This document shows positions 2,414 through 14,632 of a stretch of DNA of 64,000 nt, piece by piece; the first letter of the stretch is position 1, and each line of letters begins with the position of its first letter. The translations under genes were made by a program, and so were the position numbers. A model generated the notes under the pieces. It had not been told where the DNA came from and made no database searches. It saw only the letters and a list, made by a program, of their open reading frames with translations. The stretch is from Spirirestis rafaelensis WJT71-NPBG6 (lineage in GTDB: Bacteria > Cyanobacteriota > Cyanobacteriia > Cyanobacteriales > Nostocaceae): assembly GCA_019359015.1 (NCBI GenBank), contig JAHHID010000008.1:1-64000 (forward strand). Reading direction: 5' to 3'.

Positions 2414-3424
2414 TCACTTTGCCGGAAACGGGGTGTATTTGCCTCCCAACCCCTCAACAATCGATTGTGTATTGGCAATTAACATTTTTTGGTAAGTCTC
2501 GCCTTTACTGCCCTTTTCACCCAAACCATCGGCGTACAGTTCTCGTGGTGAAACGTTAACATTTGCGTTTTTGGCAACCGCTGTAATTAGCTTAGGATTA
2601 ATTGTTGTTTCGGCAAAAATCGTTGGTACACCAACTTTTTTAATATCTTTTACTAATGCACTTACTCGTGCTGCTGTCGGTGCTTCTTCGGTACTAATGC
2701 CTCCTAGGGCTTGTTCTACAGGAATTCCGTAAGATGAAGCGTAATAACCTAAAGCATCGTGAGTAGTCACCAGTTTGCGTGATTTCTGGGGAATTGTGGC
2801 AACTTGCGATTTAATCCAAGTGTCTATCTGGTTAATTTCCCCGATAATGTTTTGCGTATTATCACTATAAGTATTCGCATCTTCGGGTTTTAATATACTC
2901 AAGCTGTCGCCAATCACTTTTGCCATCGCTGCACCATTTTGAGCATTGTGCCAAACGTGCGGATCTATGACAGTTTTGCCGTCTTCCTCGAATGAAAGCG
3001 GGTTGGGAACCGCAAGTTCATCGACTGCGACTTTGGTAGCTGGGTTGGAAGTTGCTTCAATTAACTTAATTAACTCAGGTTCAAAGTCATAGCCGCCGTA
3101 TACAATCAACTTAGCTTGTTCAATTGCCTTGCGATCGTCTGGCTTAGGCTGGTACACATGAGGGTCAGAACCAGGGTCAATCAAGCATTTAAGATTAACA
3201 GTACTGGCAGCAATTTGTTTGGTTAAGTCACACACTATAGTGTTAGTTGCGACAACTAACGGAAGTTCGCTTTTAGCCGCTGCTGGGGTAGATGTTGGAA
3301 GACTAGAGGCGTTATCACCAGATGTGGTATTTTGTTGACTTGTTGGTGGTGTAGCTTCACATCCAAGTAAGCCGAGGGTAAGTGCCAACACAGTAATGCT
3401 TTTCATGTGTAGATTTTTTAACAT
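2414..3424 (-). CDS. znuA: Zinc ABC transporter substrate-binding lipoprotein ZnuA
   Basis: Cluster A-I (TroA/ZnuA) periplasmic metal-binding protein that hands Zn(II) to the ZnuB/ZnuC importer. A short signal peptide ends in the lipobox LLGC, followed by a Ser/Thr/Pro-rich linker. Probable metal ligands are the His residues in GSDPHVYQP, DPHVWHN and TTHDALGYY, plus the Glu of IFAETTINPK. A His rather than Glu at the third site is typical of zinc-type, not manganese-type, members. The frame is open further upstream to 3487, but that would overlap znuC and the Zur palindrome. ATG 3424 (or 3406) gives a normal lipoprotein signal. It is divergent from znuC-znuB with the Zur box between them, so zinc repression is expected. 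Confidence 0.92.
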   Translation of the reverse strand: MLKNLHMKSITVLALTLGLLGCEATPPTSQQNTTSGDNASSLPTSTPAAAKSELPLVVATNTIVCDLTKQIAASTVNLKCLIDPGSDPHVYQPKPDDRKAIEQAKLIVYGGYDFEPELIKLIEATSNPATKVAVDELAVPNPLSFEEDGKTVIDPHVWHNAQNGAAMAKVIGDSLSILKPEDANTYSDNTQNIIGEINQIDTWIKSQVATIPQKSRKLVTTHDALGYYASSYGIPVEQALGGISTEEAPTAARVSALVKDIKKVGVPTIFAETTINPKLITAVAKNANVNVSPRELYADGLGEKGSKGETYQKMLIANTQSIVEGLGGKYTPFPAK

Positions 3425-3454
3425 TTTTGATGCCAGTAGATGATTTTTTAACTT

Positions 3455-3471
3455 ATGATAATGATTATCAT
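3455..3471. promoter_or_regulatory. Zur box, perfect palindrome, znuA/znuC divergent promoter
   Basis: ATGATAATGATTATCAT at 3455-3471 contains an exact match to the cyanobacterial Zur consensus TGATAATNATTATCA (3456-3470). It lies between the divergent znuA and znuC starts, so one bound Zur dimer could silence both promoters when zinc is plentiful. Confidence 0.93.
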
Positions 3472-3485
3472 ACAAATAAAGAATC

Positions 3486-4214
3486 ATGTTAGAAGTGCGT
3501 CATCTAGCTGTCAACTACAGAGGCGTTTCTGCGGTTTGTGATGTCAGTTTTCGCTTAGAACCTGGGCAAATCGTTGGTGTGATAGGTCCAAATGGTGCGG
3601 GTAAAAGCACGATGTTAAAGGCAATTCTGGGCTTGATTCCCTGTGAAAGTGGGGTGGTTAAGTTTCGTAACGATTCTTTGAAACAACATCTGGCACGAGT
3701 TGCTTATGTACCTCAAAGAAGCCAAACTGATTGGGATTATCCGATAACAGTGCAAAATGTGGTGATGATGTCTCGGACTCGTCATACAGGTTGGTTTCGC
3801 TCGCACTCTCGTCAATCTGAAGAAATACTGAGAGCAGCGTTAGAGCGAGTTGGGATGTGGGAGTTAAGAAAGCGCCAAATTGGGGAGTTGTCGGGGGGAC
3901 AGCAGCAACGAGTATTTTTAGGGCGATCGCTTGCTCAACAAGCTGAGTTACTCTTTTTTGATGAGCCATTTGTCGGAGTTGACAAAAAAACTGAAGCGAT
4001 AATTTTTGAAGTCTTTAAGGAACTCAAATCCGAAGGTAAAACTTTGCTGGTTATCGGTCATGATTTAGGTGAAACTTCTCGAAGATATGACAGATTTCTA
4101 TTATTAAATAAAACAATTATTGCTGATGGTTCTCGCGCAGAGGTAATTACTGCTAAGAATATTCAAGAAGCTTATGGAGATGGAGTATTTTTGTTGCAAA
4201 GGGAAATAATTTGA
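3486..4214 (+). CDS. znuC: Zinc ABC transporter ATP-binding protein ZnuC
   Basis: Cytoplasmic ATPase of the zinc importer, 242 aa, normal length. Walker A is GPNGAGKST (about residues 36-44), then a Q-loop (YVPQRSQTDWDYPI), the ABC signature LSGGQQQR, Walker B LLFFDEP and an H-loop (VIGHDLG). The sequence resembles the metal (Zn/Mn) ABC ATPase group rather than other importers. It is the first gene of a rightward operon and its stop overlaps the znuB start (TGATG). The ATG is only 15 nt from the Zur palindrome, so its leader is very short and no strong ribosome-binding site is visible. Confidence 0.93.
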   Translation: MLEVRHLAVNYRGVSAVCDVSFRLEPGQIVGVIGPNGAGKSTMLKAILGLIPCESGVVKFRNDSLKQHLARVAYVPQRSQTDWDYPITVQNVVMMSRTRHTGWFRSHSRQSEEILRAALERVGMWELRKRQIGELSGGQQQRVFLGRSLAQQAELLFFDEPFVGVDKKTEAIIFEVFKELKSEGKTLLVIGHDLGETSRRYDRFLLLNKTIIADGSRAEVITAKNIQEAYGDGVFLLQREII

Positions 4215-5092
4215 TGTTTAATTTGCTGTTGGAACCGCTTTGTTTTGAGTTTATGCGGAATGCTTTATTGACAGCTATTATGTTAGGGGTTTTGTGTTCA
4301 GTTGTGGGTAGTTATTTGATTGTGCAACGTATGGGTTTGCTGGGAGATGTAATTGCTCATGCAGTTTTGCCGGGATTAGCGATCGCCTTTTTTTTCGGTG
4401 TCGATATTTTCCTAGGTGCTTTCATTTCCGGTATACTTAGTACCTTAATTATTGCTTGGATTCAATCTCAATCGCGGGTCAAGGTAGATGTAGCGATGGC
4501 AATGGTTTTCTCTGGGTTTTTGGCGTTGGGAATTATGCTAATTACTCTATTAAAAAGCAAACTTGATTTACATCAGTTTCTTTTTGGCGATATTTTAGGA
4601 GTTACCGAATCTGATATTTGGCGTAGTTTAATTATTACTGTTATTGTTTTGCTAGGTGTTAAGCTATTTTATAAAGAGTTACTATTTTACACTTTCGACT
4701 GTTTAGCGGCTCAAGCTATCGGATTACCTGTAAATTTAATTCACATCGGCTTAATTTGTGCCATTACCCTTACTATCATTGCTAGTATGCAAGCTGTGGG
4801 TGTGGTGTTGGTAGTTTCCTTATTAATTGGTCCAGCTATCACAGCTTATTTATTAGTTAAAGAATTACACCAAATGATGATGTTAGGGGCAATTATTGGT
4901 ATAATTAGCAGTATAGCGGGGATGTATATCAGCTACTATTTAAATGTGCCATCAGGGGCAGCGATTGTATTAGTTGTTTCTACTTTCTTTGTTATAGCGT
5001 TACTATTAAGTCCTTCTCAAGGAATTTTAACTCGTCCAGATGCTGTGAGAAATTCGGCAAGAATTTTTCGATCATTAAGACGAGGAAAATAG
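4214..5092 (+). CDS. znuB: Zinc ABC transporter permease ZnuB
   Basis: Inner-membrane permease of the ABC-3 (ZnuB/MntB) family, 292 aa, with about eight hydrophobic helices. It begins MFNLLLEPLCFEFMRNALLT and contains the conserved GLLGDVIAHAVLPGLAIAF segment typical of the family, as well as AIGLPVNLIHIG and the GVVLVVSLLIGPA loop that couples to the ATPase. The start at 4214 overlaps the znuC stop by one base, with AGGGA about 9 nt upstream, so the two are translationally coupled. An in-frame TTG one codon earlier is less likely. With znuA and znuC it completes a high-affinity zinc importer under the shared Zur box. Confidence 0.93.
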   Translation: MFNLLLEPLCFEFMRNALLTAIMLGVLCSVVGSYLIVQRMGLLGDVIAHAVLPGLAIAFFFGVDIFLGAFISGILSTLIIAWIQSQSRVKVDVAMAMVFSGFLALGIMLITLLKSKLDLHQFLFGDILGVTESDIWRSLIITVIVLLGVKLFYKELLFYTFDCLAAQAIGLPVNLIHIGLICAITLTIIASMQAVGVVLVVSLLIGPAITAYLLVKELHQMMMLGAIIGIISSIAGMYISYYLNVPSGAAIVLVVSTFFVIALLLSPSQGILTRPDAVRNSARIFRSLRRGK

Positions 5093-5205
5093 ATATTTTC
5101 AGTTAACAATATGATGCAATCATGAGATAATCTTCAATATTAGTACAATAAGCGTAATTAAACCACGATATAATTTATAATTTGCTTTCTTAAAACTTAT
5201 ATAAA

Positions 5206-6276
5206 TCACAAGTATGCTCGCGAATTACGATGCAAAATCACCCACGTTACTACTGGTGTACCGATTAAAGCAGTAACCGAATTCAAAGGTAAAACTGTTT
5301 GACTTCCGGTAAATTGCGTCAGTAAATCTGCAATTAATGCTAAAATTGCACCCATAATTGTGACTGCTGGAACCAACACCCGATGGTCTAAAGTATTTAA
5401 TAGACTGCGGCACAGGTGAGGAACCGCTACACCTAAAAATGCCACAGGACCACAAAAGGCAGTAATCGCTCCTGCTAAGATAGAGGCACTGGTAATAATC
5501 CAGAATCGTGCTTGTTGTAGAGTTAAACCGAGTGTGAGAGCGTGGGTATCGCCTAAAATTAGAACATTCAATGGTTTAGACAACAATAATGCTACTAATA
5601 AACCGAAAATGATTATGGGTATAAGGATTGTTAGTTGCCTCCAAGTAACACCGGAAAAACTACCAAAAGTCCAGATTAAGTAGCTTTGAATTTGAGTGCG
5701 ATCGCTAAAATTTAGTAAGATGTTCACAATTGCAGAAGTTGCGTAACCAAATAATAATCCTAAAATTAATAACGTCATTGTATCTGATACACGCTGTGAG
5801 ATAATTAACACCATTCCCAACACGACAGCAGCACCAAAAGAAGCAGCTATTACTAAACTTAAATCGCCTAATAATCCGGAATTTTTAAATAATAAACCTC
5901 CACCAGTCGCGCTCACAGTGAGGAGAACTAAAGCGACTCCCAAGGAAGCACCAGAACTAATTCCTAATATGAATGGTCCTGCTAATGGATTTCTAAATAA
6001 TGTTTGCATTTGTAAACCGCTGACACCTAAAGCAGCACCAGAAAAGGTTGCAGTTAAGGCTTTAGGTAAACGAAATTTGAGAATAATATTTGTCCAAGTG
6101 GGTTGGGAAGATTCTCCACCAAGTAAGATGGTGATGACTTCTTTGATCGGAATTTGGACGGAACCAAAGGCAATATCGAGTAGAAAAGCAATGAGTAATA
6201 TGCCAGTTAAAGTGAGGAATATTAAAGGAATATGGCTTTCAAACTTATTGTTAATTTTGTGATTTATTTTGAGCAT
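5206..6276 (-). CDS. btuC: FecCD/BtuC-family ABC permease, probably for corrinoids
   Basis: Permease of the vitamin B12/ferric-siderophore importer family, 356 aa, with about ten membrane helices. Family signatures include FRLPKALTATFSGAALGVSG, the FRNPLAGPFILGISSGASLG motif, and SILAGAITAFCGPVAFLGVA followed by VPHLCR near the C-terminus (the coupling region for the ATPase). It follows the binding-protein gene by 64 bp on the same strand. Family membership alone cannot tell B12 from siderophore or heme, but the cobalamin riboswitch ahead of the two genes favours corrinoid uptake. No ATPase (BtuD) gene is adjacent, so that subunit must be encoded elsewhere. Confidence 0.85.
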   Translation of the reverse strand: MLKINHKINNKFESHIPLIFLTLTGILLIAFLLDIAFGSVQIPIKEVITILLGGESSQPTWTNIILKFRLPKALTATFSGAALGVSGLQMQTLFRNPLAGPFILGISSGASLGVALVLLTVSATGGGLLFKNSGLLGDLSLVIAASFGAAVVLGMVLIISQRVSDTMTLLILGLLFGYATSAIVNILLNFSDRTQIQSYLIWTFGSFSGVTWRQLTILIPIIIFGLLVALLLSKPLNVLILGDTHALTLGLTLQQARFWIITSASILAGAITAFCGPVAFLGVAVPHLCRSLLNTLDHRVLVPAVTIMGAILALIADLLTQFTGSQTVLPLNSVTALIGTPVVTWVILHRNSRAYL

Positions 6277-6340
6277 TAGCTAGCTTGGGAAAGATAAAAT
6301 AAACGAATTATTAAGGATATAGAGAAGATAAAAAAGATAG

Positions 6341-7552
6341 CTAATTTAGCTTCTTGTAATAAATTAGTTGATGATTTGGTAATAGTTCTGGATGCATAAT
6401 TTTGACTAAATCGGATAAAACTACATCGGGGTTACTAGTTCCACCTTCCCAATAATCATTACCCCCATTATAATTCATGCGAAGGTTATTATTATAAACA
6501 TTACCCTTCTGAAATGCGTCAAATTCTCCATAGCGATTGTCTTCGCTGATTACATCTTTTAAACGTTGCCATGACTGACTAAGATTTAACCAATAATCTG
6601 CTTTGATAGCGCGTGCAAATACATCTTCAAATGATAAAGGTATACTACCAGAAGAATTATTTACACAAAGATAATCTGCACCTGCATCAGTTAAATATTT
6701 GGCAGCATAACTTTTACATCCTGGTGCATACCAAGTCCCTTTAAAGTTAAATCCAGTAAAGACGGTGGGACGTTTTTTGATAGATTTTACTTTTGCAGTT
6801 ATAGCGTTGTATTTTTGCGATGTCTCCTGAAAAACTTTCTCTGCAATCTCATCTTTATTAAAGAATAAAGCTGTAAATTTTAACCATTCCGCATGTCCCA
6901 ACGCAGAAGTTTCCATATATTCGGCATTTATCGCTACTTTTAAACCTGCTTCTAACAATTTGGGATGACTATCTGTTTGAGGGTTCCCTGTACCATATGT
7001 TATCACTACATCAGGGTTAAGTTGTAAAACTCGCTCAATATTCAAATTACCATCACTTCCGACTTCAGCGATTTTTCCTGCTTTGATATTTTCAACTACT
7101 GCTTGTGTATTCACTTTTTTACTATCGCTGACAGCAAGTAGTTTATCGGCTATTCCTAATTTAGCAAAGTGAGGTAAATGAGTCGTGGAAAGCGAGATAG
7201 CAGAATTTACTGGGATAGTAATTATTTGACTTTTATCAAACCCTGCTGGTACAGGTGTGCCACATTGTACTAAAACATATTGAAAACTAGCTTTAGCATC
7301 ACGCCAAGGATTTTTTACGGTGATAAGTTTATAGTTTTTCTGATATTCTACAGTAAAACCAGTGGCGTAATTCACTGTCAACTTTTTTGGAAAGTAATCA
7401 GTATTTGGATTATAGTTTTGCAGGCAAGCTTTTGTATCTGCTATTTTCTCACGAGGAGTGATTAGATTGTTACAGGAGACGATGAAAGTAGCTACACAGA
7501 AAATTAAAGAAAAAAAGATGCTCCATTGAGCTAGCCGAATTTTTAAAGTCAT
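6341..7552 (-). CDS. btuF: ABC substrate-binding lipoprotein, probably corrinoid (BtuF-like)
   Basis: Periplasmic binding protein of the FecB/BtuF (cluster A-II) type, 403 aa. The signal peptide ends in the lipobox FIVSC at about residue 27. About 90 residues of extra N-terminal sequence precede the binding fold, which starts near ITIPVNSAISLSTTHLPHFA. Further family markers are LNIERVLQLNPDVVITYGTG and the C-terminal YWEGGTSNPDVVLSDLVKI. It is transcribed with the permease at 5206-6276. The nearest upstream elements are a broken small gene and a cobalamin riboswitch, so expression should fall when cobalamin is abundant. A siderophore substrate remains possible. Confidence 0.82.
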   Translation of the reverse strand: MTLKIRLAQWSIFFSLIFCVATFIVSCNNLITPREKIADTKACLQNYNPNTDYFPKKLTVNYATGFTVEYQKNYKLITVKNPWRDAKASFQYVLVQCGTPVPAGFDKSQIITIPVNSAISLSTTHLPHFAKLGIADKLLAVSDSKKVNTQAVVENIKAGKIAEVGSDGNLNIERVLQLNPDVVITYGTGNPQTDSHPKLLEAGLKVAINAEYMETSALGHAEWLKFTALFFNKDEIAEKVFQETSQKYNAITAKVKSIKKRPTVFTGFNFKGTWYAPGCKSYAAKYLTDAGADYLCVNNSSGSIPLSFEDVFARAIKADYWLNLSQSWQRLKDVISEDNRYGEFDAFQKGNVYNNNLRMNYNGGNDYWEGGTSNPDVVLSDLVKIMHPELLPNHQLIYYKKLN

Positions 7553-7568
7553 TATATGAAAAAATGTC

Positions 7569-7896
7569 CTAAGTAAAAAAATCTCCCGCTTTAAACACTA
7601 AAATTTGAGGAAACTTAGCGTGAGATACATTCCAAAGTTGAATCCCCCATGTTTTTGGTGTTCCTTCAGGGTTAAGACGACGATATAAATGCACCTTTCT
7701 TAATTAATCCTTGTTGTCGTAGTTCAATAAGTGTTTCCGAATTAGGACCACCTAAATTTTCTTCAATACATATCGGTATTTGATTTGATGGGGTATTCTG
7801 TGCAGAAATATTCCCCGCATTAAATATTGTAGATATGGCTATCAAGTTGATAGTTAAGAAAAATTACTAATAAATACTTGCACCAAAAGTATACAT
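7569..7896 (-). pseudogene. Broken small gene between riboswitch and btuF
   Basis: Reading leftward from an ATG at 7896, one frame gives MYTFGASIY, two consecutive stops, then a hydrophobic stretch (FFLTINLIAISTIFNAGNIS) that looks like a signal peptide. After it come IPICIEENLGGPNSETLIEL and RQQGLIKKG. A frame change then continues as VHLYRRLNPEGTPKTWG and IQLWNVSHAKFPQILVF, stopping at 7569. The likely ancestor was a secreted protein of about 100 aa. It lies 16 bp before btuF and downstream of the riboswitch, so it was probably the first gene of the corrinoid operon. I do not recognise the family. Confidence 0.65.
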
Positions 7897-8129
7897 AAGA
7901 CTCCTCGCTGTGAATTAATTCGTTTATTCCGCAAACCAAATTTAAATCTGCTTTCGATAAAGCAGACTTATGACGATGAAGATTGTTAATGTCTTAATGC
8001 TTTCAAAGCAAAACTACCAAGACACTAAATAACTAATGATAATATTCTTAAGAAATAAGAACAGTATTTAATTAGAAGTAATGCATGAATTGCAACTTAT
8101 ATCTGTAGCTTGCAAATCTAAAATTCTGA

Positions 8130-8300
8130 CGTATCATCCGTACCTCGCAGATGTGTGTTTAATGTTACTATCGGCGGGCATTCTGACTCTGAGACTAGAT
8201 TCCGCGTCTCATCACAGTTGCGGGACAGTGCCGGATTTACACCGAACTTTCCCCCTTGCGTCTGATGGATGTTCTCCATCAAAACCGATCGCATGAAATA
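8130..8300 (-). ncRNA. Cobalamin riboswitch
   Basis: Read on the minus strand, the block GGTGTAAATCCGGCACTG followed by CCCGCAACTG matches the conserved core of the cobalamin (AdoCbl/B12) riboswitch. It is preceded by a stem (TTGATGG...CCATCAA, 8262-8284) and GGGGGAAAGTT. It is followed by the conserved AGAGTCAGAATGCCCGCC end and a CTGCGAGGTACGGATG segment. It lies upstream of, and points toward, the broken gene and the btuF-btuC genes. The boundaries given are approximate. It should turn off downstream expression when cobalamin binds. Confidence 0.94.
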
Positions 8301-8407
8301 GCTTACCACTTTAATTCACATTTAGACTACATTTTTTAAGATTTGGCGATCGCTCTTTATTTTTCACCCTCACTTAATAAGAAAAATTCTTACTAAAAGT
8401 CAGGATA

Positions 8408-9472
<1,065 letters not shown>

Positions 9473-9484
9473 CTACCTATTTAT

Positions 9485-10234
9485 TTAATTTGAAACAGCT
9501 TTAATTTTGTTGACTGCAAAACCCTTGCTTTCCCCGTAGCGCACAGTTTTAAATTCCACTTGATTTGCGCTTGGGTTGTAAAGGGTGTAGGTTGCTTGTC
9601 CAGGAGTGCGTCCTACATTACCTACGCCAATAACTTGACTTGGGGTTATTTTAATAGTGTTACTATAAGCCTGACTATCGAGGGTGGTGACTGCTGTAAT
9701 GATGGAACCTGCTTGTAGTTGGTACTGAAAAGATAAACCAGAACGACCACAGAATAAATTATTTGCTTGCATCCGCGACAGGCGATCGCACATAATAATT
9801 GGCAAAGTTTCAGGTGTTAATTCCTCGCTCACAGATACGGTTGTTCCGTGAATTAATAAACAATCCAGTTCAAAGAAGCCAAAATCCAAGTTTCTAATCC
9901 ATTGCACTGTCTGACGAGAAACAGATTCCCACAACAACTTGACCGTTTCTCCCCCATATTTCTCTATCAACTCAGTTGGTTCACCGTCAGCCCCAAGACC
10001 GTGTAAAATTAAGCATTGTTCCTCCCACCATCCCTTACAAACGAGAGGTTCTAACTCTCCCCTGAAAGGTTTACGCACACGTTCCACCAACTCTTCAGAT
10101 TGTTGTGTTGGTCCGACTAAATCACCAAGAATATACAATGCTTCATAAGAGCGGCTTTGACGTTTAATATCTGCCAGCACAGCTTCATAAGCCGCTAAAT
10201 TACCTTCAATTCCACTTAAAATTGCCCATTTCAT
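9485..10234 (-). CDS. Degenerate metallophosphoesterase (probable pseudoenzyme)
   Basis: Protein of 249 aa with the overall calcineurin-like phosphoesterase fold of the next gene upstream: N-terminal MKWAILSGIEGNLAAYEAVL, ILGDLVGP and a C-terminal region VIGVGNVGRTPGQATYTLYN. Most metal ligands are gone. The D-x-H motif is G-I-E, the GNHD motif is GWWEE, and GHTH is GRSG; only the GD of ILGDLVG and the His of LIHGTT remain. It should not be able to hold a normal dinuclear metal centre. It lies 75 bp before hemB and 98 bp after the intact-looking paralogue, and may bind or regulate it. No Zur box precedes it, so it probably depends on upstream promoters. Confidence 0.75.
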   Translation of the reverse strand: MKWAILSGIEGNLAAYEAVLADIKRQSRSYEALYILGDLVGPTQQSEELVERVRKPFRGELEPLVCKGWWEEQCLILHGLGADGEPTELIEKYGGETVKLLWESVSRQTVQWIRNLDFGFFELDCLLIHGTTVSVSEELTPETLPIIMCDRLSRMQANNLFCGRSGLSFQYQLQAGSIITAVTTLDSQAYSNTIKITPSQVIGVGNVGRTPGQATYTLYNPSANQVEFKTVRYGESKGFAVNKIKAVSN

Positions 10235-10332
10235 ATGATTTGGTTAGTTGTTATTTGATAGTTGCTAATTGCTAATTGGTAATTGGGCATTTCCCGTTTT
10301 CCCTTTACCCTTTTCTCCTCTTCAAAAACCCA

Positions 10333-11142
10333 TTACCTATTACAAACATGAGTCGGATCATCAGCTTTTTCTGCATATTCCAATCCTTGGGCTAAACGCC
10401 AAGCAAAAATTGCTGGTAAGCCTTTTTCGATAATCGCTGCACAAGTTTTTTGGTAGTCGTAAGCAACTTCTCGCAGCGTAACTTGTTGAGACTCAGTGTC
10501 ATAAATAACATAAGTTGCCAGACATCGCCCATGTCTCGGTTCTCCCACCGAACCAACGTTGACAATTCGCTTTAAAGATGCATTAAAACTTATTTCCTGT
10601 TCTTTGCCCTCACTTTTAACACGAACTTGTAAGTTTCCGGCATCTAAAGTACGCACATAAGGTACATGAGTATGACCGCAAAATAGTACATCTGCTCCTA
10701 TAGAAAGTACTCGTTCTAAGGCTACAAAAGAATCGAGTTCGGGTAACAAATACTCGTGATTGCTATGAGGACTACCATGAACAAAAGCTAAATTTTCCTC
10801 ACGAAAACTGTAAGGTAGTTGTGCTAAGAAGGTGCGGTTCTCTGGATGAATTTCTTTATTTGTCCACTCGTGAGCTAAATGTCCGCGTTTCTCTGCTAAC
10901 AATGAAGGATAACTGCATTCGCAAGCATTCAATCCCTCAACAATATCTTCATCCCAACAACCAACGCAAGTGGGAATATCTAAAGAGCGAATTTGGGCAA
11001 TAACTGCATTTGGATGAGGACCATATCCTACCAAATCACCGAGACAATAGATTTTTTCGCACGAATTTTTGTCGATATCTAACAAAACAGCATCAAAGGC
11101 TTCATAGTTGCCATGAATGCATGATATTACCGCTATTTTCAC
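10333..11142 (-). CDS. Metallophosphoesterase, YfcE-like, with cysteine substitutions
   Basis: Calcineurin-like phosphoesterase, 269 aa, probably a cytoplasmic phosphodiesterase or phosphatase. Motifs in order: MKIAVISCIHGN (normally S-D-x-H-G-N), CLGDLVGYGPHPN, CVGCWDEDI (normally G-N-x-D/E), FVHGSPHS and FCGHTHVPY, then IVNVGSVGEPRHGR. Two metal ligands, the first Asp and the Asn, are both Cys; the other ligands are kept. It starts with GTG at 11142, inside a GTGA overlap with the NTPase gene upstream, so the two are translationally coupled. It sits in the Zur-controlled row. The substrate is unknown. Confidence 0.85.
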   Translation of the reverse strand: MKIAVISCIHGNYEAFDAVLLDIDKNSCEKIYCLGDLVGYGPHPNAVIAQIRSLDIPTCVGCWDEDIVEGLNACECSYPSLLAEKRGHLAHEWTNKEIHPENRTFLAQLPYSFREENLAFVHGSPHSNHEYLLPELDSFVALERVLSIGADVLFCGHTHVPYVRTLDAGNLQVRVKSEGKEQEISFNASLKRIVNVGSVGEPRHGRCLATYVIYDTESQQVTLREVAYDYQKTCAAIIEKGLPAIFAWRLAQGLEYAEKADDPTHVCNR

Positions 11143-11924
11143 GCTTGAATCTCCTCTGTTACTAATTGTTTTGCCTGTTCTTGGTAATATAAAATAGCGG
11201 ATTCAGACAAACAGCAATCTTGTAATGTTTGCCTCAAGTTGACTTCATCTAAGCCTTCTATAAAAATTTCTAAACCACTAAAACGTTGTGGTCTACCTTC
11301 TAGATGACGAGGTAAATTTAACTCGATAAATTCGCTTTTGGTAATACCAGCAGTAAAATCAGCGTACAAATATCGTCCATCATCAACATTAAAAATTCCT
11401 TTAGCGCGGGTGACTGTGCCATAAGCATTGTGTGCGATTTCATACCAAAACTCTTCCAGGCTGTTTTCCTCAATGACTTCACCAGTGCTGGATGCTCGCC
11501 AAAATTGGGCTTGTGCAAAACTAGTTTGAGCATCTGCTCCTTGTATAATTTCGTTTGTCCAGGAGTGCCATTCAGAATCTTTGAGGTGTGGTGGTAGGAT
11601 AGCGATCGCTCGATACGGTAAATTATTTAATACTTGGGCTACTGTGCTTAATTCCAAGTAAAATCCCAATTCTATGTAAACAGCATCCGAAGAAGCGAGT
11701 TGGTTGACAAACTCAGTTTCTTGAGCGTCACTGAAGACTTTAACCGTAGGAAATTGAGCAGCGATGCGCGTCTGGTCAATCGGAACAGTGCCAGTACCAG
11801 GGCTAAAATATAATACATTTTCATCCTTAACGCGAATCTTCTCTCTTAAAGCCAGCTGTTGGGAAATCCAAGTCGTTTTGCCACAGCCTACTGGACCAGC
11901 GACGACGGTGATTATTGGCAGCAT
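11139..11924 (-). CDS. Short COG0523/CobW-like NTPase lacking the CxCC motif
   Basis: P-loop protein of 261 aa. Walker A is VVAGPVGCGKTT at residues 8-19. The rest follows the CobW/COG0523 layout (AVYIELGFYLE in the switch region; C-terminal RAKGIFNVDDGRYLYADFT, like the CobW C-terminal domain). The CxCC metal motif and a His-rich loop are absent, and it is 50-100 residues shorter than typical COG0523 metallochaperones. It overlaps the metallophosphoesterase gene by 4 bp. A Zur box lies 2 bp upstream of the ATG, leaving no room for a ribosome-binding site; the start is nevertheless fixed by the P-loop beginning at residue 10. A metal-delivery or regulatory role is inferred, not shown. Confidence 0.8.
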   Translation of the reverse strand: MLPIITVVAGPVGCGKTTWISQQLALREKIRVKDENVLYFSPGTGTVPIDQTRIAAQFPTVKVFSDAQETEFVNQLASSDAVYIELGFYLELSTVAQVLNNLPYRAIAILPPHLKDSEWHSWTNEIIQGADAQTSFAQAQFWRASSTGEVIEENSLEEFWYEIAHNAYGTVTRAKGIFNVDDGRYLYADFTAGITKSEFIELNLPRHLEGRPQRFSGLEIFIEGLDEVNLRQTLQDCCLSESAILYYQEQAKQLVTEEIQA

Positions 11925-11925
11925 T

Positions 11926-11940
11926 TAATAATGATAATCA
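11926..11940. promoter_or_regulatory. Zur box abutting the short COG0523-like gene
   Basis: TAATAATGATAATCA (11926-11940) matches the Zur consensus at 12 of 14 specified positions. It ends 2 bp from the start codon of the gene at 11139-11924, so any promoter here would give a nearly leaderless message. Confidence 0.72.
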
Positions 11941-11956
11941 TTTTAAGGGGATAAAA

Positions 11957-13198
11957 TCAAGCACTTATAGGGTGTGAAAGTGCCAGACTTGATTTAACAA
12001 TTGCAGGCACAATCTTTTCACTTGCCATTCTTGCGCCAGATAAATTCCGCGCTGTTGGTCCGACTTGTAAAGCTGCTAACCCACCCATCAGAAATAATTC
12101 ACAACCAGGAACGCGCAAATGTTCATCCAGAACTGGTAAATTATTAACTATCTTGATTGGATAAGCTGCGAAAACTTCTTTTAATAAAGGTTCGCATGTG
12201 GCATCAAATTTAGTGCCGGTGGAAAGCCAAATTCTACTGCATTTATGTTGACTACCATCACTGCATTCGACTCGCCAATTTTCACCAACGAAGGAAGCTT
12301 TGACTATTTGACACTTTTCGCCAATTATTAGATTACCACTATGCGCTTGTCGGCGCAACTGCATTCCCAATTTGGGTGTCATGGAACCGCCGTTACGCGC
12401 TTGCACAATCATGGCAAAACGCTTTTGATAATCTTGTTCGGCAAAAAATCCCTTGAGATACTTCGGTCCCAACCAACCTGGTTCGGCATCGAATAATTTT
12501 TCTTGCATTTGTCGGCGCATCATCAAGTGAACTTTTGCACCACGAGAAATAGCACCTACAGCCAAGTGTCCACTTGTTAACCCACCACCCACAATTAATA
12601 CTTTTTCACCCGTTATATTTAAACTACGTAAATCTACGGTTTTTGAGTGGCAAAGTCTATCTTTAGGATACGCTGACTCAATCTGGTTTACCCAATCGGG
12701 TATTTGGAGTTTAGCGCTACCCGTTGCCAGTACCACCCGCCGTGCAATAATTGATTGTCCATCTTGCAACCATAGACGCAAGCGAGGACGAATTAGGTGA
12801 GATAAAGGTTCAATGCGAGTTACCAAACCGGGAATTACTTGCTGTTGTAATGAAAAGCGCTGAATTACATCCTGACAAAAATCTGCAAATAGCTGAGTTC
12901 CCGGTAAATCGTAAGGTACGTGTAATTCAGTTGAGCGATTCTCAGCAAATTTACGCAAGCCGAAATGATTGGGGTCGGGATGATGAACAGCGGGAGAACG
13001 CAAATGAGGAATTTCCAAAGCCGCAAATTGATGTTGCCAATGACTCATCCATTTACCACTAGGGTCAAACACGAGAAACTTATCATGCATACTTTGCCGC
13101 TTTTGCAGCAAGTGAGTTACTAATGTTAATGCATGAGGACCAGCACCGATAATTGCTAAGTCAATTTTATTGGGTAAGGATGGCGGAGTACTTTCCAT
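11957..13198 (-). CDS. FAD/NAD(P)-binding oxidoreductase
   Basis: Two-dinucleotide-binding-domain flavoprotein, 413 aa. The FAD-binding GxGxxA-type motif is at the N-terminus (DLAIIGAGPHALTLV), the ATG(S) motif is VVLATGSAK, and a second nucleotide-binding motif is VLIVGGGLTSGHLAVGAISR. It ends with an ELFLMGGLAALQVGPTARNL segment. The sequence is reminiscent of N-hydroxylating monooxygenase-like flavoproteins (ornithine/lysine N-monooxygenase relatives), but the exact family is not certain. It is 27 bp downstream of the COG0523 gene and 32 bp upstream of the short NTPase gene, with Zur boxes on both sides, so it belongs to the zinc-starvation set. Possible jobs are metallophore modification or redox control of a metal site. 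Confidence 0.8.
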   Translation of the reverse strand: MESTPPSLPNKIDLAIIGAGPHALTLVTHLLQKRQSMHDKFLVFDPSGKWMSHWQHQFAALEIPHLRSPAVHHPDPNHFGLRKFAENRSTELHVPYDLPGTQLFADFCQDVIQRFSLQQQVIPGLVTRIEPLSHLIRPRLRLWLQDGQSIIARRVVLATGSAKLQIPDWVNQIESAYPKDRLCHSKTVDLRSLNITGEKVLIVGGGLTSGHLAVGAISRGAKVHLMMRRQMQEKLFDAEPGWLGPKYLKGFFAEQDYQKRFAMIVQARNGGSMTPKLGMQLRRQAHSGNLIIGEKCQIVKASFVGENWRVECSDGSQHKCSRIWLSTGTKFDATCEPLLKEVFAAYPIKIVNNLPVLDEHLRVPGCELFLMGGLAALQVGPTARNLSGARMASEKIVPAIVKSSLALSHPISA

Positions 13199-13202
13199 TC
13201 TA

Positions 13203-13217
13203 AGATAATGATAATCA
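13203..13217. promoter_or_regulatory. Zur box abutting the FAD oxidoreductase gene
   Basis: AGATAATGATAATCA (13203-13217) matches the Zur consensus at 12 of 14 specified positions. It ends 5 bp upstream of the ATG at 13198, inside the 27-bp gap after the COG0523 gene. Confidence 0.72.
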
Positions 13218-13225
13218 TTACAAGG

Positions 13226-14263
13226 TTATACTAAACATTCGTTTAGTAAAGAGTGAATTTTGCTATCATCCAGATGTTTACCAATCAAAACCAATTGATT
13301 TTTCGGCTGAGTTTTCCATTCATCTGCATCTAATTCATAACGCAGTCCACTAAGTTGAAAAATATGTCTTAAGTTGCTGTCGCTGAACCAAAGTAGACCT
13401 TTTGCGCGAAAGACATTTTGTGGCAAATGTTCGGTAAGAAATGTTTTAAATTTATAGATATCAAAAGCGCGATCGCTTTCAAAAGATACAGATACAAATC
13501 CATCATTTTCTAAATGATTGGAGTGATGCTCATGATGATGGTGATGATGCTCATGGTCATGATGATGATGCTCGTGAGCATCTTCTTCAACTTCAGAAGT
13601 ATACTGATCTATTGGCGTTAAATCGACATCTAAAATTAAAGGTAACGCTACTTCACCGTATCTAGTATGTAGGATTCTCGCTTTCCCTTTCACATCCTGA
13701 ATATAAGCTTCTAATTCCACCAACTTTTCTTTAGTAGCAAGGTCTGTTTTATTCAGCAGAATCACATCTGCATAAGTTATTTGTTTTAAGGCTGCATCAC
13801 TTTCGTAATGTTCAGGAGTAAACACCTCGGAATCTACCACAGTTATAATAGAATCTAGTTTAGTTAAATCCCGAAGTTCTGTACCGAGAAAGGTGAGGAT
13901 AATCGGCAGTGGATCGGCAATACCAGTAGTTTCAATTACTAAATAATCGATGCTATCTTCTCGTTCTAAAACTCGATAAACAGCATCAACTAAGCCATCA
14001 TTAATTGTGCAACAAATACAGCCATTGCTCAGTTCTACCATATCTTCATCCATCGATACGAGCAACTGACTGTCTATATTAATGTCGCCAAATTCGTTAA
14101 CAAGAACAGCAACTTTTAAATCATGCTTATTTTTGAGAATTTGGTTAAGCAGTGTGGTTTTACCACTACCTAGAAATCCTGTAATAATTGTGACTGGCAT
14201 CCCTCGCTTAGGAATGTCGAGTACTTCACTATCAATCTCGGTTTTAATTGCTATGTTAGTCAT
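13226..14263 (-). CDS. COG0523 GTPase (CobW/ZigA-type zinc metallochaperone)
   Basis: G3E-family GTPase, 345 aa. Walker A is TGFLGSGKTTLLN, the metal-binding CxCC motif is NGCICCTIND, ETTG(I)ADP is the switch region and LLNKTD is the NKxD base-recognition motif. A long His-rich loop (about 20 His within 35 residues, 13512-13590) precedes the CobW C-terminal domain. Such proteins bind zinc and are thought to deliver it to client enzymes. An upstream in-frame start exists at 14314, but ATG 14263 is preceded by AAGGAT at about 6 nt and fits the family. A perfect palindromic Zur box lies 85 bp upstream. It heads the leftward low-zinc gene row. Confidence 0.93.
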   Translation of the reverse strand: MTNIAIKTEIDSEVLDIPKRGMPVTIITGFLGSGKTTLLNQILKNKHDLKVAVLVNEFGDINIDSQLLVSMDEDMVELSNGCICCTINDGLVDAVYRVLEREDSIDYLVIETTGIADPLPIILTFLGTELRDLTKLDSIITVVDSEVFTPEHYESDAALKQITYADVILLNKTDLATKEKLVELEAYIQDVKGKARILHTRYGEVALPLILDVDLTPIDQYTSEVEEDAHEHHHHDHEHHHHHHEHHSNHLENDGFVSVSFESDRAFDIYKFKTFLTEHLPQNVFRAKGLLWFSDSNLRHIFQLSGLRYELDADEWKTQPKNQLVLIGKHLDDSKIHSLLNECLV

Positions 14264-14347
14264 ATTTATCCTTGATTTTTTACTTAAATTCCGAAAAATA
14301 AGTCTTTTCATCAATCGCTTCTTGCAAAAGCGATCGCCTCTAATATA

Positions 14348-14362
14348 TGATAACGGTTATCA
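14348..14362. promoter_or_regulatory. Zur box upstream of the COG0523 gene
   Basis: TGATAACGGTTATCA (14348-14362) is a perfect 7-1-7 palindrome and matches the Zur consensus at 12 of 14 specified positions. It lies 85 bp upstream of the ATG at 14263 and is probably the main promoter operator of the leftward operon. Confidence 0.85.
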
Positions 14363-14632
14363 TTCTATATGAAAAATGCCAAATGCAACAAGCGATTGTA
14401 AAATGATGTGAATATGTAATGCTTATGGCAATAGCGATCGCTTTATGCTAGGCATTGCGGAATAGAGCGTATCTATTATTTTTCGCTTTTATCGCTTTTT
14501 ATACTTAAGCTGTGTTCTGTTGAGGAAGAAAAAATAGCTTGATGTGATCCAGGTAATAATAATTTTTAATTATAAAAAAGCAAAAATATTTACCTAACAG
14601 CTAATAAATGATAACTATATAGTTTTAAAACC

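Follow-up and report, generated by a model that had tools for sequence, protein, structure and literature searches.

Which genes of this locus does a cyanobacterium hold under the zinc regulator Zur, and what might the least familiar of them do? These questions are raised by positions 2414 to 14362 of the window, the whole 64,000-nucleotide stretch analysed here (positions 1 to 64,000 of contig JAHHID010000008.1, forward strand) from Spirirestis rafaelensis WJT71-NPBG6. The segment carries genes for zinc uptake (znuA, znuB, and znuC), a zinc-free porphobilinogen synthase (hemB2), a COG0523 GTPase, an FAD oxidoreductase, and a P-loop NTPase followed by two metallophosphoesterase-like proteins (MPE1 and MPE2), together with five palindromes of the Zur box type. 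Judging from the boxes, the orthology, and the published relatives, this island is very probably a cluster of separately promoted, Zur-repressed zinc-starvation units. The island is of a known kind, because similar content is covered by the Zur regulons already published for Anabaena and for Synechococcus 7002, and the regulatory finding adds a member to that kind. The NTPase-MPE1-MPE2 cassette is its less known part.

Zur boxes of the island

The box consensus was scored over 14 positions as a TGATAATNATTATCA-type palindrome, and mismatches were counted out of 14. Such palindromes, a feature of the cyanobacterial Zur regulon, are present at the island promoters. Box 1 (3456–3470), between znuA and znuC, is a perfect palindrome (14/14), and boxes 2 (9431–9445) and 5 (14348–14362), upstream of hemB2 and the COG0523 gene, respectively, match at 12/14; none of the boxes is assigned a strand. 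Boxes 3 (11926–11946), directly upstream of the NTPase start, and 4 (13203–13223) each consist of two overlapping palindromes, the first matching at 12/14 (11926 and 13203) and the second lying 6 bp on (11932 and 13209). The initial annotation had listed the five palindromes with scores of 12 to 14 out of 14, and our pattern scan reproduced both coordinates and scores.

In the region 2414–14412, seven sites with at most two mismatches were found (overlapping ones included) against a mean of 0.18 and a maximum of 2 in 300 shuffles, which rules out chance as the source of the five boxes. At up to three mismatches, the whole window held 17 sites against 6.1 expected. The genome-wide check for the pattern proposed earlier was also run and gave 137 sites at up to two mismatches, compared with 82 for the reversed pattern; the majority of these genome-wide sites are therefore due to chance. 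Scans for promoters (37 vs 35.2) and terminators (8 vs 9.9) did no better than shuffles.

Only two boxes in the genome are perfect, that at 3456 and one on contig C44 (C44:35371–35385; 1501–1515 of locus L007). The latter is flanked by a COG0523 gene on one side and, on the other, by a gene whose product has an export-type N-terminus and gave a sub-threshold PEP-CTERM match (E 0.12). This pair is possibly a ZepA-type Zur target, the likeness being one of type and not of orthology; ZepA is a published Zur target (PMC10957091; this and the other papers are cited for the parts of their text that were available).

Gene content and evidence for Zur control

Domain searches upheld the genes that the initial annotation had placed behind the boxes (znuA/znuC, hemB, a short COG0523-like NTPase, an FAD oxidoreductase, and a COG0523 GTPase). 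On the left, znuA (2414–3406, minus strand) encodes the binding lipoprotein of a zinc ABC transporter (PF01297, E 1.1e-77); its open reading frame (ORF) opens at 3487, and the start at 3406 was our choice, made for the signal peptide. It is followed by znuC (3486–4214, plus strand; ABC ATPase, PF00005) and znuB (4211–5092, plus strand; ABC-3 permease, PF00950, E 5.7e-79). The remaining units are on the minus strand: hemB2 (8408–9409; porphobilinogen synthase, PF00490), the FAD/NAD(P)-binding oxidoreductase (11957–13198; PF13454 and PF07992), for which a sequence search gave no solved relative, and the COG0523 GTPase (13226–14263, the start again being our choice), identified by domain and motif matches including GCICC. 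The His-rich linker of the GTPase corresponds to a repeated histidine-coding stretch at 13514–13577.

The genome has two hemB genes. The metal loop of the boxed island copy lacks the three zinc cysteines and is of the zinc-free type; the second copy, on contig C17, is of the zinc type (metal loop TCLCEYTSHGHCG) and showed no box in the 400 bp before it (five mismatches at the best site). Both the zinc uptake genes (znuABC) and a zinc-sparing paralogue (zinc-free hemB2) thus stand under boxes.

There are three Fur-family genes in the genome. For one (L002), the top solved relative was 7ne9, which we take to be the Synechococcus Zur, by a clear margin (83.7 bits; next, 61.3); for another (L003), the top match was a zinc-type regulator in a near tie with iron Fur entries. 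Because the overlapping palindromes with 6-bp spacing at 11926/11932 and 13203/13209 resemble the classical Fur box, the consensus alone cannot separate Zur from Fur. Another member of the family, iron Fur or PerR, could bind the boxes instead of or besides Zur, and the number of Fur-family genes as well as this resemblance speak for this possibility. However, it is very improbable in view of the gene content (znuABC, zinc-free hemB, and COG0523) and of published work on Anabaena and Synechococcus 7002, in which hemB2, COG0523, or oxidoreductase genes were either bound by Zur or derepressed in a zur mutant (PMC6103462 and PMC4628125).

Zur-governed pairs of zinc-free and zinc HemB are already known (PMC2770081). 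Like the island, the Zur regulon of Anabaena sp. PCC 7120 includes znuABC, hemB2, and a COG0523 gene, all4722, and Zur binds strongly at Pall4725 and Pall4723 (review PMC6103462, citing Napolitano 2012); MPE proteins are unmentioned in what the available text of this review says of the regulon. In Synechococcus sp. PCC 7002, which has a Zur cluster on pAQ7, loss of Zur derepresses hemB-II, folE-II, a GTPase-like gene, and the gene for an FAD-dependent oxidoreductase, and TPEN induces them (PMC4628125); hemB-II, the GTPase-like gene, and the oxidoreductase of the cluster have counterparts in the island; the FAD oxidoreductase is thus already published as a Zur target. These sources agree with the earlier statement that Zur regulons with COG0523 proteins are known in cyanobacteria. 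Taken at the level of sequence, the proposal of a zinc-starvation island under Zur is well supported, because the gene content, the zinc-free HemB paralogue, the boxes in relatives (below), and the published Zur regulons point to it.

Two features of the segment lie apart from this set. Between hemB2 and znuCB (5206–8304, minus strand), a cobalamin riboswitch (RF00174) precedes genes for BtuF-like and BtuC-like proteins, which have no immediately adjoining ATPase gene on that strand. No box was found at these genes (best sites, four to six mismatches); being unboxed and having the riboswitch instead, they were rejected as members of the Zur set. Downstream of znuA, short tandem repeats with units of 7, 14, and 21 bases occupy 2261–2397.

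Separate units in relatives

Does the island form one operon cut up by boxes, or are separately controlled units gathered here? The initial annotation had seen boxes at nearly every gap. Five units are indeed boxed, but the phosphoesterase genes form a tandem pair with no box before MPE1 or MPE2; in the gap before MPE2, the best site has six mismatches, and the start of MPE1 overlaps the end of the NTPase gene.

We examined 80 named loci of relatives, all selected via the NTPase and many closely related, counting a gene as boxed when a site with at most two mismatches lay between −300 and +30. For the NTPase this held in 47 of 79 loci, compared with 1/79 for the reversed pattern and ca. 4% for windows drawn at random from these loci. 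Of the other genes, hemB was boxed in 22/27, the FAD oxidoreductase in 13/17, the COG0523 gene in 17/34, znuA in 5/8, and znuC in 5/7. In contrast to these genes, MPE1 was never boxed (0/78) and MPE2 in only 3 of 76 loci. Twenty further loci were fetched, and the NTPase was boxed in eight of them. The order and strand of the units vary among the 80 named loci. Because of these counts per gene, boxes tend to mark what appear to be separate units, and MPE1 and MPE2 are probably read from the NTPase promoter. In relatives, the units stand in different orders, and a unit's own box is retained in roughly half of the loci or more; the independent silencing of segments suggested earlier is therefore plausible. 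A gathering of Zur-controlled units would fit these data better than the single operon implied with it.

Distribution of the NTPase-MPE1-MPE2 cassette

In a sample of 291 genomes of the class, the NTPase was found in 109 and MPE1 in 101, the latter count having been lowered from 105 by dropping four genomes with weak matches (G047, G064, G083, and G091). Both were present in 98 genomes and adjacent, in order, in 94 of these. With a more permissive cut-off that admits MPE1-like proteins as well, MPE2 was matched in 119 genomes; the oxidoreductase was matched in 92. Among the named loci, MPE1 was found in 78 of 80 (no match in L107 and L115) and MPE2 in 76. The oxidoreductase was near the NTPase in only 17 of the 80 named loci and in 8 of the 20 fetched ones, on the opposite strand in 7 of these 8. 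The co-occurrence expected of the leftward genes therefore held for the NTPase and MPE1 but not for the oxidoreductase, and the module that had been proposed, an oxidoreductase with a phosphoesterase pair, gives way to NTPase-MPE1-MPE2 as the near-fixed unit.

The cassette extends to picocyanobacteria, in six loci (L179–L184) so called by family grouping. All six carry a weaker Zur-like palindrome with three to four mismatches, 41–78 bp before the start of the NTPase match, a result that none of 20,000 sets of windows drawn at random from these loci equalled; the windows were not restricted to intergenic DNA. A provisional view that these cassettes are boxless was dropped when the laxer cut-off showed the palindromes. 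We rejected the identification of synw0972/0973 of marine Synechococcus WH8102 with the cassette, the six loci having given no adjoining znuA or znuB match. In one of them, a 22%-identity ABC ATPase match lies ca. 4 kb from the cassette.

Several observations weigh against Zur control throughout the family. In 32 of the 79 named loci, the NTPase has only sites with three to five mismatches, and two of the 14 non-picocyanobacterial fetched loci (L189 and L197) lack any site near the NTPase (seven mismatches). The picocyanobacterial palindromes all have three to four mismatches, none having two or fewer, and no znuA or znuB match lies beside the cassettes in the six loci. For Synechococcus 7002, the available text of PMC4628125 reports no response to the loss of Zur by the two genes that occupy the MPE position; the gene numbers were matched to cassette positions by order. 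Unlike the island, pAQ7 of this strain (L131) has a truncated NTPase and an MPE2 matched only in part, so that the cassette is broken; no MPE1 match was found in the stretch, and the gap holds a 235-aa ORF in which no domain scored above cut-off. The breakage may be the reason why the two cluster genes ignored the loss of Zur. A plasmid of the sister strain PCC 7117 (L207) carries the whole cassette beside folE and hemB.

Among the matches listed in a literature search of open-licence papers, judged by titles and term counts, only the Synechococcus 7002 paper (PMC4628125) was relevant to the cassette, and the word phosphoesterase was not found in the main text of PMC9337993, PMC10957091, or PMC12058595.

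Metal-site motifs of MPE1 and MPE2

The calcineurin-like phosphoesterase superfamily binds its metals through the motifs DxH, GD, GNH, H, and GHxH. MPE1 (10333–11142, minus strand; PF12850, Metallophos_2) shares the fold and most motif positions with the calcineurin-like phosphoesterases 3rqz, SapH (3qfm), and YfcE, and aligns with the canonical 3rqz over most of its length. In contrast to these enzymes, Cys-8 stands at the Asp of motif I and Cys-62 at the Asn of GNH, the His of GNH is replaced by Trp-63, and there are extra invariant cysteines; His-10, Asp-36, His-122, His-157, and His-159 are kept. MPE1 thus departs from the motif set of active calcineurin-like phosphoesterases, having CxH and GCW in place of DxH and GNH with the rest kept. 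Cys-8, His-10, Asp-36, Cys-62, Trp-63, Cys-74, Cys-76, His-122, Cys-155, His-157, His-159, His-265, and Cys-267 were constant in 129 of 129 rows, which came from four partly overlapping sets (78, 29, 20, and 2; 118 distinct). NCBIfam gave only distant phosphodiesterase models for MPE1.

MPE2 (9485–10234, minus strand), assigned by a profile match to MPE1 over 230 columns and by motif counts, has lost most of the site and departs from active phosphoesterases at DxH, GNH, and GHxH. Over 123 rows, Gly-8 stood at the motif-I Asp in 122 (one row not covered), Trp-70 was present in 123, and Arg-164 stood at the first His of GHxH in 122; Asp-38 (121/123) and His-129 (123/123) are kept.

These residues bear on three readings. 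The one that we prefer, tentatively and at somewhat less than an even chance, is that a phosphoesterase was remade into a binder of a soft metal, most likely zinc, in a nucleotide-driven metal-handling complex that is not mainly a hydrolase; from the residue changes and the gene association we infer which metal is bound, that a complex forms, and that metal is transferred. On the model of the superfamily, Cys-8, His-10, Asp-36, and His-159 would form site M1 and Asp-36, Cys-62, His-122, and His-157 site M2, with further putative ligands in the Cys-74-x-Cys-76 pair, Cys-155, and the His-265-x-Cys-267 pair.

In the main rival, which we regard as unlikely, MPE1 would be a working hydrolase whose metal preference has changed. 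It could, for example, be a phosphohydrolase of dinucleotides (Ap4A-like) or of other nucleotides that is produced when the normal metal is short, with the NTPase metallating it as a client. His-10, Asp-36, His-122, and the GHTH motif are retained, and after 3rqz the best fold match of the MPE1 model was the asymmetric Ap4A hydrolase SapH. In addition, COG0523-type genes often adjoin the gene of the enzyme that they serve. Against it stand the change of the GNH His to Trp and of two hard ligands to cysteine in every row, and a tandem partner, MPE2, with most of its site lost.

In the third reading, MPE1 and MPE2 would be pseudo-hydrolases that control the NTPase in response to a nucleotide or a low-zinc alarm molecule, their cysteines serving redox or structural zinc. 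The fixed gene pairing would suit this, as would an MPE1 deprived of its catalytic His and an MPE2 with little of the site left. Since two cysteines fall exactly at canonical metal-ligand positions and not in new places, we regard these sensors as improbable.

Relation of the NTPase to COG0523

The cassette NTPase (11139–11924, minus strand; 261 aa) appears to share with the COG0523, YjiA, and CobW GTPases a P-loop domain followed by a CobW_C-like one. CobW_C was matched in 15 of 16 family members at E up to 0.1 (best, 1.7e-6) and the cobW N-domain in 9 of 16 (best, 0.0077), and the top Foldseek match was the COG0523 protein YjiA (E 3e-7). Unlike these GTPases, the NTPase is without CxCC and NKxD: neither motif was found in any of 51 alignment rows (16 of set A1 and 35 of A3), and both were found in 19 of 19 rows for the true COG0523 protein of the island. 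From its sequence, we class the NTPase as a divergent relative of COG0523 and not as a member.

Phosphoesterases in arsenic operons

Relatives of MPE1 outside the cassette were sought in a collection of plasmids only, which serves as a lead rather than a census. The set consisted of 20 sequences from 18 plasmid records; of 142 matching records, the wider neighbourhood was viewed in 15 (eight with ars genes, six without, and one without annotation) and that of three more narrowly. All 20 sequences keep the motif-I Asp and the Asn of GNxD. All eight of the GNYD type have CxC at position 74 or 75, and none of the other 12 does (11 GNHD and one GNTD). An ars operon is the genomic setting of seven of these eight (Pedobacter, Pontibacter, Rubrobacter, Paraclostridium, Hymenobacter sp. 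NBH84, Adhaeribacter, and Mucilaginibacter); the eighth, from Hymenobacter monticola, was seen in narrow view beside DUF6428. The GNYD + CxC proteins resemble MPE1 in the place of CxC and in an aromatic residue for the catalytic His, and occur as part of a tandem pair in two operons, but differ from it in keeping the motif-I Asp and the Asn of GNYD. In those two operons (L210 and L218), one of the tandem phosphoesterases is GNYD + CxC and the other GNHD, a possible parallel to MPE1-MPE2. The cassette NTPase had no match in these ars plasmid records, and its seven plasmid matches were all cyanobacterial. In a 26-row tree, MPE2 formed one well-supported group and the outside sequences another, and MPE1 fell in between with no supported placement, subject to a long-branch warning.

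Discussion

The explanation that we consider best as a whole, Zur-controlled units that include a soft-metal-handling cassette, stands just short of an even chance. Its units would be those for uptake (ZnuABC), zinc sparing (HemB2), metal allocation (COG0523 GTPase), the FAD oxidoreductase, and NTPase-MPE1-MPE2. When zinc is sufficient, Zur would sit on each box and block its unit; when zinc falls, all units would be released. In the cassette, the MPE1 thiolates would bind a soft metal, most likely zinc, the NTPase would drive the loading or release of MPE1 with its degenerate twin MPE2 as partner, and the complex would keep or hand on scarce zinc.

Part of the evidence runs contrary to such a cassette. 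The NTPase of the window falls below the Pfam cut-offs, its superposition with YjiA is poor (TM 0.31/0.26, rmsd 13), and its profile aligned with the COG0523 protein of the island over only 47 columns (probability 76). The MPE1 model has pLDDT below 50 at 64–82, 125–139, and 256–269, which include the Cys loop and the C-terminus. As to the arsenic operons, 3 of the 12 outside sequences without CxC are also found in them (Flammeovirga and the second genes of the Pedobacter and Mucilaginibacter pairs). In these sequences CxC goes with GNYD, and an arsenic context is thus not confined to the CxC type.

A broader and more speculative possibility, which we think unlikely to hold in full, is an undescribed subfamily of the phosphoesterase fold turned to the handling of soft metals (or metalloids). 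It would comprise the arsenic-operon members with CxC and an aromatic residue for His and the branch of MPE1; MPE1, MPE2, and the CxCC-less NTPase would then form a nucleotide-driven zinc-transfer machine, Zur-controlled from Nostocales to, with weaker boxes, picocyanobacteria.

For the passing on of zinc by COG0523-type proteins, the cassette, kept from Nostocales to picocyanobacteria, offers a compact and testable candidate partner. As a family annotation, "metallophosphoesterase" may be a misnomer for the MPE proteins.

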